Positions 1,554 to 10,892 of a stretch of 33,054 bases of DNA are shown one piece after another. Source of the stretch: Planctomycetes bacterium GWF2_41_51 (GTDB taxonomy: Bacteria > Planctomycetota > Phycisphaerae > Sedimentisphaerales > UBA12454); NCBI GenBank assembly GCA_001825665.1, contig MHXZ01000097.1, positions 1 through 33,054 of the forward strand, written 5' to 3'. Below the pieces are notes generated by a model that made no database searches, was not told the DNA's origin, and was given only the letters and a program-made list of their open reading frames with translations. Both the position numbers and the translations under genes were made by a program. Within the stretch, counting starts at the first letter, position 1. The number at the start of each line of letters is the position of its first letter.

Positions 1554-2330
1554 ATGAGAAAAATATTATATCTGGGCGATACCGCACTTGCGGAGGCGGC
1601 AAGCTATCTTGCGGGGGTAATGAATTATTTTGAAACGGATTTTGATTACGCGGAGTCGAAAAAGAAATTCGATGAGTCGTTATTAAAAAACGATTATGAC
1701 GCGATTATCATAAGCGATTATCCGGCGGAAAATTTTACTGAATCGCAAATTGATAAAATAATTAAAAAAGTCAAAAGCGGAACAGGCCTTTTGATGATTG
1801 GCGGATGGGAATCGTTTACAGGTTTAAATGGGGGATACAACCATACCGCGCTGACGGAAGTTTTACCGATAATAATGGAAGATTTTGATGACAGGGCAAA
1901 TTGCTCTGGGCCTTGTCTGATTGTGAGAAATCGCGAGCATATAATAACTGATTCGCTGCCGTTTGAAAATCAGGCACCGGCGGTTGGGGGATTTAATAAA
2001 TTGAGACTGAAGCGATTCTGCAATGAGATACTTTCGGTAAGGCGGTTTAAAGCTGAATATAAAGATGGAAAGTTTGAATTTTTGGAAGCCGGGGATTTTC
2101 CGCTGCTTGTTACGGGCAGTTACGGAAAAGGGAATGTTGCGGCGTTCGCATCGGATGCTGCACCGCACTGGGTTGGGCCGCTGGTTGACTGGGGCGATAA
2201 ACGAATAACGGCCAAGGCGGCGGGCGGGACTGAAATAGAAGTTGGAAACTGGTATGCAGAACTGTTTATAAATATGATTCGCTGGGTAAGTAAAACCGAG
2301 CGGCAGCAGAATACGGAGGCAAAATGTTAA
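1554..2330 (+). CDS. Glutamine amidotransferase-like domain protein
   Basis: A 258-residue protein. The ATG at 1554 is preferred over an upstream in-frame start that would overlap about 100 nt of the deacetylase gene; it begins MRKILYLGDTALAEAASYLA and has an AGG-containing site upstream. It shows the alpha/beta pattern of class-I glutamine-amidotransferase-like proteins: NDYDAIIISDYPAENFTE, then GTGLLMIGGWESFTG where the nucleophile elbow would lie, and LLVTGSYGKGNVAAFASDAA near the C-terminus. No clear catalytic Cys sits in the GGWES turn, so it may be a non-glutaminase member (GATase1-like, or a ThuA-like fold). It is cytosolic by appearance. Its stop overlaps the next start by 7 nt, so it is translationally coupled to the phosphofructokinase. 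Confidence 0.7.
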   Translation: MRKILYLGDTALAEAASYLAGVMNYFETDFDYAESKKKFDESLLKNDYDAIIISDYPAENFTESQIDKIIKKVKSGTGLLMIGGWESFTGLNGGYNHTALTEVLPIIMEDFDDRANCSGPCLIVRNREHIITDSLPFENQAPAVGGFNKLRLKRFCNEILSVRRFKAEYKDGKFEFLEAGDFPLLVTGSYGKGNVAAFASDAAPHWVGPLVDWGDKRITAKAAGGTEIEVGNWYAELFINMIRWVSKTERQQNTEAKC

Positions 2331-3526
2331 AAGGTAATGCAATAATCGGGCAGTCAGGCGGACCTACATCGGTGATAAACGCATCGCTGGCGGGAATCGT
2401 TACGAAAGCGAAGGAATTTGACGGCATAAAAAATATTTTCGGGATGCGTTACGGCATTGAAGGATTTATGGCGGAGAATATCATTGATTTAGGCAGTGAA
2501 TCTTCGGAGACGATCGCGGGATTGAAAATGCGTCCTTCGAGCGCGCTGGGTTCGTGCAGGCATAAACTACAGGATGAAGATTTGCCGAAGATTTTGGATT
2601 TGCTGAAAAAATATGATATCCGATATGTTTTCCTCATCGGCGGCAATGATACGATGGACACAATTCATCGAATTGAAACATACGCTGCGGAAAATAATTA
2701 TGAACTGGCGGGTATCGGGGTTCCGAAAACGGTTGATAATGACCTTTTCGGGACAGACCACACGCCGGGGTTTCCGAGCGCGGCGAGATATATCGCGCTT
2801 TCAGTTTTGCAGGCCGGGATTCTGGCAAAGGATATGCAGAAGGTTGACCAGTTCGTAATATTCCAATGTATAGGCAGAAAAGCGGGATGGCTGCCTGCGG
2901 CGGCAACACTTGCAAAAAAAGAAGCATCGGATGCGCCGCATATTTTGTGTCTGCCGGAGCGGGTTTTTGAAAAAGAAAAATTTCTCGCTGAAGTAAAAAG
3001 ATGTTATAATGATTTCGGTTTCGTTTCGGTAGTTTGCGGAGAAGGTTTGGAATATGCGGATGGAACCGCGGTTTCAGCTTCTCAGGTAAAAGATAAATTT
3101 AACAATGTCGAATTCGGCGCGATGGGCGGAACAAGCGTTGCAGTTGCGCTGCACAGGATGATTTCCGGCAATCTTGGTTTCAGAGGCGAATTTCAGATTA
3201 CCGAATCGCTGCCGATGTGTGCTTCTGACCGGGCGGTGCTGCTTGATATCGAAGAAGCGTTTGCGGCGGGAAAAGGCGCCGTTGAACTTGCGGAAAAAGG
3301 CAAAACTGGATTGATGGTTACGCTGAACAGAAGGCCGGGCAAAAAATACGAATTTTTTACCGGCTCGATAGGCTTGAAGGAAGTTGCGATTAAAGCGAAA
3401 CCAATGCCGGATGAGTTTATCAGCAGAGACGGATTTTCTGTAACAGATGCGTTTATGGATTATGCGCGGCCGCTGATTGGGCCGATGCCGGAATATGCGA
3501 AACTAAATTATAAAAAATTTAATTAG
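2324..3526 (+). CDS. 6-phosphofructokinase, probably pyrophosphate-dependent
   Basis: A 400-residue PFK-family protein that would interconvert fructose 6-phosphate and fructose 1,6-bisphosphate in the cytosol. Visible motifs are GQSGGPTSVINAS (9-21), GGND (106-109) and PKTVDND (134-140). In ATP-dependent enzymes the two diagnostic sites read GGDG and PGTIDND; here Asp replaces the last Gly of the first and Lys the Gly of the second, which is the known PPi-type pattern, so a diphosphate--fructose-6-phosphate phosphotransferase is likely. GEGLEYADG and GAMGGTSVAVALHRMISG follow in the sugar-binding half. The CGGAGG site lies within the end of the preceding gene. Its place between an amidotransferase-like gene and a SIS gene suggests dedication to one substrate route, although it may also be a glycolytic enzyme. 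Confidence 0.88.
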   Translation: MLKGNAIIGQSGGPTSVINASLAGIVTKAKEFDGIKNIFGMRYGIEGFMAENIIDLGSESSETIAGLKMRPSSALGSCRHKLQDEDLPKILDLLKKYDIRYVFLIGGNDTMDTIHRIETYAAENNYELAGIGVPKTVDNDLFGTDHTPGFPSAARYIALSVLQAGILAKDMQKVDQFVIFQCIGRKAGWLPAAATLAKKEASDAPHILCLPERVFEKEKFLAEVKRCYNDFGFVSVVCGEGLEYADGTAVSASQVKDKFNNVEFGAMGGTSVAVALHRMISGNLGFRGEFQITESLPMCASDRAVLLDIEEAFAAGKGAVELAEKGKTGLMVTLNRRPGKKYEFFTGSIGLKEVAIKAKPMPDEFISRDGFSVTDAFMDYARPLIGPMPEYAKLNYKKFN

Positions 3527-9226: not shown

Positions 9227-10348
9227 ATGGCAGCGGAAATTATAGAAGTAAAAGACCCAATCAGGGACATAGAAAAACTCAAAAAATGCGCCGAATGCAT
9301 CGACAGCGGCGGGCTGGTTGTTTTTCCAACTGAAACCGTTTATGGAATTGCCTGCCGGGCGGAAAAAAAAAGCATAGAACGGCTCGATGAAGTAAAACAG
9401 AGAAATATTGAAAAAAGATATACCCTGCACATCGGCGATAAGAACAAACTTTCGGATTTCGTACCAAATCTGACCCCGCCTGTAAAAAAACTTGTGCGGA
9501 ACGCCTGGCCGGGCCCACTGACGATTGTTTTTGAAATAGGCGCCAACGATATTGAGAAACTAAAAGAAAAACACGGCGGGGAAACTGTCGAACTTCTTTA
9601 TAAAGACAGCAGCATTGGAGTTCGCTGCCCTGACGAACCGGTTGCCGAGACACTTTTGAATCTTTGCAAATATCCGGTCGTCGCGCCGAGCGCCAATACA
9701 GCAGGCCAGCCCCCCGCCACCGAAGGAAGGCAGGCTTATGAACAAATTGGCGACTTTGTCGATATAGTGATTGATTCAGGCACATGCAAGTTCGAAAAAA
9801 GCAGTACCGTAGTAAAAATTTCACCTTCCGGCCTTGGAATTTTGAGGGTCGGAGCCTTTTCTGAAAGACAAATTCGAAAAATGTACAAGTTAAACATTCT
9901 ATTCGTATGCAGCGGAAACACCTGCAGAAGCCCAATAGCCGAGGCGATGGCAAAGAAATTTTTAGCCGAAAAATTTGGCTGTAATATTGACCAATTGGAG
10001 GATATGGGGTATAAAATTGAATCCGCAGGCGTTTTGGCAATGAACGGAATTGCCGCAAGTGACGGCAGTGTAATGTTTTGCGAATCAAGGGGCGCAGATT
10101 TGAGCAAACATAAAAGTCAGAGGCTTACGGTCGAAAAAATTAAGTCTGCCGATTATATTTTTGCGATGTCAAACGGGCACAAAGATGCTATAATGCAGCT
10201 CTGCTCGCAGGCGGAACGGAAATGTATGCTGCTGAAGGAAGACGCAGAGATAGACGATCCCATCGGCGGCGATTACGAAGCTTACAAATTTTGCGGTGAA
10301 ATCATTGAAAAAGCAGTCAATGACAGGATGAGTGGGCTTTTCAAATAA
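9227..10348 (+). CDS. Fusion of threonylcarbamoyl-AMP synthase (TsaC/Sua5 type) and protein-arginine-phosphatase-like LMW phosphatase
   Basis: A 373-residue two-domain protein in one uninterrupted frame. Residues 10-215 are a TsaC/YrdC domain that makes threonylcarbamoyl-AMP for the t6A37 modification of ANN-decoding tRNAs: GGLVVFPTETVYGIACRA (28-45), K57/R59, AWPGPLTIV (93-101), APSAN (153-157) and SSTVVKI (192-198). Residues 221-373 are a low-molecular-weight phosphatase with CX5R loop CSGNTCRS (C228 to R234) and general-acid motif DDPIGGD (343-349). A Thr after the Asn of the loop is the known mark of protein arginine phosphatases such as YwlE, where tyrosine phosphatases have Ile. B. subtilis keeps ywlC (sua5), ywlE and ywlF (rpiB) together, so the fusion next to rpiB fits. 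M219 could serve as an internal start for the phosphatase alone. Confidence 0.9.
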   Translation: MAAEIIEVKDPIRDIEKLKKCAECIDSGGLVVFPTETVYGIACRAEKKSIERLDEVKQRNIEKRYTLHIGDKNKLSDFVPNLTPPVKKLVRNAWPGPLTIVFEIGANDIEKLKEKHGGETVELLYKDSSIGVRCPDEPVAETLLNLCKYPVVAPSANTAGQPPATEGRQAYEQIGDFVDIVIDSGTCKFEKSSTVVKISPSGLGILRVGAFSERQIRKMYKLNILFVCSGNTCRSPIAEAMAKKFLAEKFGCNIDQLEDMGYKIESAGVLAMNGIAASDGSVMFCESRGADLSKHKSQRLTVEKIKSADYIFAMSNGHKDAIMQLCSQAERKCMLLKEDAEIDDPIGGDYEAYKFCGEIIEKAVNDRMSGLFK

Positions 10349-10424: not shown

Positions 10425-10892
10425 ATGAATGTAGCAGTTGCAAATGACCATAGAGGTATTGAAGCAAAAGAACAGATAAAAGCCATAGTGTCTGAATTGG
10501 GGCACAGCTGCCTGGATTTGGGCACAAACAATGACGCTCCGGTCGATTATCCGGATTTGGCTTTTCTGGCAGCTTCCTCTGTCGCCACAAAGAAGGCGGA
10601 CAGGGCAATCCTCATTTGCGGAACTGGTATCGGCATGTGCATCGCGGCTAATAAGGTTGACGGCGTTCGCGCAGCGCTTTGCTACGACGAACTTAACGCC
10701 CGAATCAGCAGACAGCATAACGATTCGAATATTCTGTGCCTCAGCGGCGATTTGCTCGGCTCGCAGGTACTCAGGAAGATAGTCGAAGTCTGGCTTGTAA
10801 CTGAATTTTCAGGCGGCAGACATCAAAGAAGAGTAAATAAAATTTCCGCTATCGAACAAGGGATGGACCCAAGCGCTATAAGTAAGCAATAA
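10425..10892 (+). CDS. rpiB: Ribose-5-phosphate isomerase B (RpiB/LacAB family)
   Basis: A 155-residue protein of the RpiB/LacA/LacB family, which interconverts ribose 5-phosphate and ribulose 5-phosphate in the pentose phosphate pathway. Visible are VAVANDHRGIEAKEQI at the N-terminus, the LDLGTNNDAPVDYPDLA region, ILICGTGIGMCIAANKVDGV with the catalytic-Cys-type motif ICGTGIG, and ARISRQHNDSNILCLSGDLL. Length fits the family (about 145-155). It lies 76 nt after the tsaC fusion on the same strand. The gap holds a bulged hairpin but no clear terminator, so the two are probably co-transcribed. A LacA/LacB-type sugar isomerase is an alternative, less likely here given the ywl-like neighbourhood. 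Confidence 0.93.
   Translation: MNVAVANDHRGIEAKEQIKAIVSELGHSCLDLGTNNDAPVDYPDLAFLAASSVATKKADRAILICGTGIGMCIAANKVDGVRAALCYDELNARISRQHNDSNILCLSGDLLGSQVLRKIVEVWLVTEFSGGRHQRRVNKISAIEQGMDPSAISKQ

Follow-up and report, generated by a model that had tools for sequence, protein, structure and literature searches.

The fused gene and its neighbours

The window is the whole 33,054-nucleotide stretch of DNA analysed here, one contig of the 4.83-Mb genome of Planctomycetes bacterium GWF2_41_51, which is 95.6% complete. The gene under study (Table 1) begins with ATG and is read through 373 codons with no internal stop. What appear by eye to be glycine-cleavage genes lie upstream in the opposite direction. 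The downstream neighbour is rpiB, which is the order predicted from B. subtilis, where sua5, ywlE and rpiB are presumably adjacent.

Table 1. Features of the fused gene and its downstream neighbour in the window.
Feature	Position	Strand	Basis
Fused TsaC/Sua5 (threonylcarbamoyl-AMP synthase) and YwlE-type LMW phosphatase gene	9227..10348	+	85 further fusions in the phylum
TsaC/Sua5 domain, residues 24-209	9296..9853	+	PF01300 (Sua5_yciO_yrdC), E 3.8e-42; TIGR00057 above cut-off
Junction from G209 (TsaC end) to C228, 18 residues, includes M219	9854..9907	+	Alignment of fusions
LMW phosphatase domain, predicted arginine (YwlE) type, residues 224-365	9896..10321	+	PF01451 (LMWPc), E 1.5e-24
P-loop CSGNTCRS: C228 nucleophile, T232 selectivity residue, R234	9908..9931	+	Thr/Ile rule from PMC8001253
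DP motif, D344-P345, predicted general acid	10256..10261	+	Aligned with the YwlE DP motif
rpiB (ribose-5-phosphate isomerase B), 76 bases downstream	10425..10892	+	LacAB_rpiB, E 1.5e-53 (Pfam)

The original prediction, that a TsaC/Sua5 synthase and a CX5R phosphatase share one 373-residue frame, was borne out by Pfam and NCBIfam. The Sua5 domain is full length (144.2 bits against a cut-off of 25.1), and the NCBIfam model for L-threonylcarbamoyladenylate synthase, TIGR00057, scores 143.9 bits against 123.2. The first half carries all the core motifs of TsaC/Sua5 synthases (FPTETVYG, K57-x-R59, WPGPLT, GVRCP, SAN at 155-157, SSTVV and RVG), and the substrate-site residues (PTET.YG, K-x-R and SxN) are kept. 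The second half has the C-X5-R loop and the DP acid by which LMW-PTPs are recognised. Both domains are complete and match their families far beyond chance. By the features tested each half is a member of a known family, the exception being the partner of the synthase: the C-terminal SUA5 domain is absent and the LMWPc domain stands in its place.

A sequencing frameshift or assembly artefact was ruled out, because dozens of other genomes have the same uninterrupted frame, and several of these are assembled as a single contig. It is also very improbable that the frame yields two proteins, by internal initiation at M219 or by cleavage at the junction. M219 does stand just before the phosphatase domain, but no strong ribosome-binding site is seen upstream of it, and methionine is not conserved in that column of the alignment, which makes separate products by internal initiation unlikely. 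An AlphaFold model of the fusion, built from a four-sequence alignment, had a mean pLDDT of 33 and was discarded.

Apart from the fusion, the genome has one Sua5 domain, part of a 769-amino acid HypF-like frame that also has a TsaD-like domain, so that the fusion is the sole dedicated TsaC. Similarly, every other full-length LMWPc protein is ArsC-like, which leaves the fusion as the only YwlE candidate. TsaD is encoded elsewhere in the genome, and a second, shorter match to the TsaD family may be TsaB.

Distribution of the fusion in the phylum

Matches spanning the junction within a single open frame were sought in 392 genomes of the phylum. They were found throughout it, and none of the ten further genomes sampled from the order lacked them. 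Eighty-six fusions were aligned; they represent over 50 of the roughly 100 family-level groups (our count from the survey table). The comparison across Planctomycetes that the original prediction called for thus shows a widespread architecture. The stretch from G209 to C228 is 18 residues long in 77 of the 86, and this near-constant junction fits one ancestral event; the two domains were most likely joined once, at an early stage of the phylum. No paper describing a fused TsaC-phosphatase was found in the collection of literature searched, and domain databases may well already hold the architecture.

Descent from an ancestral tsaC-ywlE-rpiB cluster, also proposed at the outset, is supported by gene order: at 73 of 95 loci rpiB adjoins the phosphatase gene, many of the stretches ending at contig ends. 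In one genome (G278; L137, frame 2049-2999, minus strand) the YwlE-type phosphatase of this neighbourhood shares a frame with its other neighbour, RpiB, and not with TsaC. The PDB chain 4egs, YwlE-like and 180 residues long, is assigned to RpiB by its chain name. Free phosphatase frames of 155-203 codons occur in six genomes of the same class as the window (G231, G342, G303, G384, G251 and G380).

A scan of named relatives returned one close fusion, one ArsC-like protein, one TsaC and one HypF-like match. The close fusion, from Planctomycetota bacterium UR.bin163, a low-coverage MAG (L055:3001-3771), is that of the closest named relative. It is partial, a few dozen TsaC residues being missing in frame at the SAN motif, either through a real deletion or through an assembly error.

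The phosphatase half

A sequence search of the PDB placed the arginine phosphatase YwlE 4pic first among relatives of the second half (E 7.2e-19), followed by 4egs and then B. subtilis YwlE, with tyrosine phosphatases later. Residue 232, at position 5 of the loop, is threonine and not isoleucine. In YwlE, Thr or Ile at this position directs activity towards phosphoarginine or phosphotyrosine, respectively, and the T11I change in PtpB raises general phosphatase activity (PMC8001253). The loop threonine, the top YwlE match and this rule together support the predicted arginine-type assignment. With YwlE of B. subtilis and Geobacillus, and with PtpB of S. aureus, the protein of the window shares the LMW-PTP family, the C-x-G-N-T-C-R-S loop, the DP acid and an McsB-type kinase in the genome. 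It differs from them in being fused behind TsaC and in coming from a genome in which no CtsR was found, and its phosphoarginine activity is a prediction from sequence.

Cys228, Asn231, Ser235, Gly268 and Pro345 are invariant across the 86 fusions, while Arg234 and Asp344 are kept in 98% (D in 84 of 86, P in all 86). Judged by the alignment, both active sites of the fusion are under constraint. Loop position 5 is occupied by Thr in 69 fusions and by Ser in eight, the remainder having Leu, Ile, Val or Arg. Some of the 17 non-Thr loops belong to genomes whose McsB is intact (G001 and family-level group f62), and the threonine rule is therefore not strict. Among the sampled fusions of f62 the loop residue is Ile in five (L129, L130, L242, L246 and L259) and Thr in a sixth (L241).

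The arginine kinase system

The original prediction implied an McsB-type kinase elsewhere in the genome, and one was found, encoded by adjacent mcsA and mcsB genes on contig C58. The kinase keeps the motifs NEEDH, CPTNLGTGIR and GEGTEA, and ends in RDILRA, an instance of the RDxxRA motif that we take to be the phosphoarginine receptor of Firmicutes McsB. It passes the NCBIfam protein-arginine kinase model NF002194 (400.6 against a cut-off of 385), and its closest PDB matches are McsB structures, which are protein-arginine kinases. In the proposed search for mcsB, ctsR and clpC, the first and last were thus recovered, together with mcsA; clpC, whose product has two N-domains, is on a different contig from mcsA-mcsB. 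CtsR gave no match in this 95.6%-complete genome, nor did the B. subtilis control for PF00217, Clp_N or CtsR, and for that reason neither single negatives nor controls were read as proof of absence.

The adjacency of mcsA and mcsB, the catalytic and RDxxRA motifs and the presence of ClpC are shared with the McsA/McsB/ClpC quality control of Firmicutes. The differences are that clpC stands on a separate contig, that the phosphatase is borne on a tRNA-modification enzyme, and that the CtsR repressor of the Firmicutes ctsR-mcsA-mcsB-clpC heat-shock operon was not found. Contig C58 also has a short phosphatase-like frame (L006:4587-4739, YLFICAANRNRSKAAEQ...) that stops after 51 codons; it is either a remnant or a member of a small distinct family.

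McsB-type kinases were detected in 371 of the 392 genomes, and in 212 of the 217 of good quality. In the literature collection searched, no paper discussing such kinases in planctomycetes was found. Kinase and phosphatase are lost together in a few places. Two genomes of one genus (G311 and G331) have CEANTLSS as the loop, an altered DP acid and an McsB without its catalytic motifs, while the TsaC half is intact. In G017 McsB is dead, and the LMWPc proteins left are one Ile-type and one ArsC-type; in G014, an incomplete genome, McsB is also dead and no LMWPc was found. In three genomes with no McsB found (G004, G028 and G107) the LMWPc proteins are only of Ile-type or ArsC-type. Conversely, no LMWPc was found anywhere in G088, whose McsB is intact, and a strong McsB match without a detected LMWPc was obtained in G300, G345 and G206. 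The pair is therefore not obligatory. Nine genomes, 56-93% complete, have an arginine-type fusion and no McsB found, each having McsB-bearing relatives in its family-level group. Co-occurrence is given here without a p-value because the fusions were sampled on presence and because of these nine incomplete genomes; the co-losses represent few independent events.

The four McsB-like proteins that have lost their catalytic motifs (L144 and L145 in G311 and G331, L160 in G017 and L161 in G014) are each accompanied by a remaining McsA-like frame on the same stretch, and they are possibly pseudokinases with a retained role. In f62 the McsB proteins (L154-L159) are divergent with their motifs intact, and no mcsA was found on the stretch.

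These distributions bear on the substrate of the phosphatase. That the C-terminal half acts on phosphotyrosine or some other substrate, its threonine being incidental, would accord with the isoleucine found at the selectivity position in fusions of two family-level groups (f62 and f10). We consider it quite improbable, given the threonine in most fusions, the ranking of YwlE as top match and the near-universal McsB. Moreover, the phosphatase is dead where McsB is dead, and the three genomes with no McsB found that carry only Ile-type or ArsC-type proteins are reasonably complete.

Separate decay of the TsaC half

Eighty fusion genomes were tested for Sua5 domains, and 17 were found to have a second, stand-alone TsaC. 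When a TsaC half is counted as broken if 16 or fewer of 20 core residues are kept, the fused half is broken in 14 of these 17, compared to 1 of 69 others. A strict test of the SxN motif gave loss in 12 of 17 with a second TsaC and in none of 63 without (Fisher p 1e-10, a value that ignores relatedness). The catalytic residues of the phosphatase are intact in every fusion with a broken TsaC half. On a tree of McsB and the phosphatase half, the TsaC state changed about eight times, and a single genus contains both states: G157 has an intact TsaC half as its sole copy, and G209 and G261 have a second copy and a broken half. A test that allows for relatedness found five well-supported independent pairs, of which about 4.5 agreed (sign test p 0.06), and the corrected support for the association is modest. 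If the domain has a non-catalytic role, the strongest sign of it is that broken TsaC halves have been kept.

Why the two domains are joined

Our preferred reading, to which we give a probability of about 0.78, is that the fusion is a bifunctional enzyme derived from the tsaC-ywlE-rpiB cluster, whose halves work independently and whose phosphatase opposes McsA/McsB. The domains, their intact active sites, the kinase partner, the spread and the separate decay are all read from the sequences; from them we infer both activities, the substrate and any benefit of being fused. The N-terminal half would convert threonine, bicarbonate and ATP to threonylcarbamoyl-AMP for t6A37 of tRNA. In the C-terminal half, Cys228 would attack the phosphate of phosphoarginine with Asp344 as the acid/base, Thr232 selecting for phosphoarginine. 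By opposing the McsA/McsB arginine kinase this half would rescue tagged proteins from ClpC. The adjacent genes of the cluster would have been joined early in the phylum. Proximity might keep the enzymes of t6A synthesis free of phosphoarginine, which the preferred reading does not require.

The original prediction went further, and held that through the fusion t6A modification is tied to the removal of arginine phosphorylation. In B. subtilis, McsB phosphorylates TsaD on Arg282, ClpCP degrades the protein and YwlE protects it (PMC7546277), which makes such a link plausible. A phosphatase held on the t6A machinery might shield TsaD and its partners from McsB/ClpC, or might sense threonylcarbamoyl-AMP, threonine or ATP bound by TsaC. 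The preservation of the fusion over most of the phylum is in keeping with joint regulation, as are the broken TsaC domains kept with an intact phosphatase in the genomes with a second TsaC, as if in non-catalytic use. However, the halves lose activity independently, the phosphatase is free in six genomes of the same class, and in G278 it is joined to RpiB. As it was stated, the claim is unsupported, and we regard regulatory coupling as a doubtful reason for the fusion.

The independent decay of the halves and the phosphatase-RpiB fusion point instead to adjacency, and not obligatory coupling, as what made the fusion. Co-transcribed neighbours could have become one gene when a stop codon was lost, and splitting them again would need a new start with no benefit attached. 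We give this even odds; it concerns only the reason for joining and is compatible with a bifunctional enzyme. The frequent neighbourhood of rpiB and the naming of the YwlE-like chain 4egs as RpiB are in line with such an accident. On the other hand, broken TsaC halves have been retained, not deleted, in many genomes, and the length of the junction is nearly invariant. A TsaC half that serves, even when broken, as a targeting or sensing module holding the phosphatase at the t6A machinery (TsaD/TsaB/TsaE) is, in our estimate, unlikely.

Implications

Most work on protein-arginine phosphorylation has been done in Gram-positive bacteria. A set of McsA, McsB, ClpC and a YwlE-type phosphatase that looks complete at the sequence level is now seen across much of another phylum. 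Its eraser shares a chain with a t6A-pathway enzyme, and another member of that pathway, TsaD, is a reported target of McsB and YwlE in B. subtilis (PMC7546277). If the TsaC half did act as a targeting module, tRNA modification and the protein degradation driven by phosphoarginine would be inherently linked in planctomycetes. The lineages in which one half is dead are natural experiments, and make the reason for the fusion directly testable.
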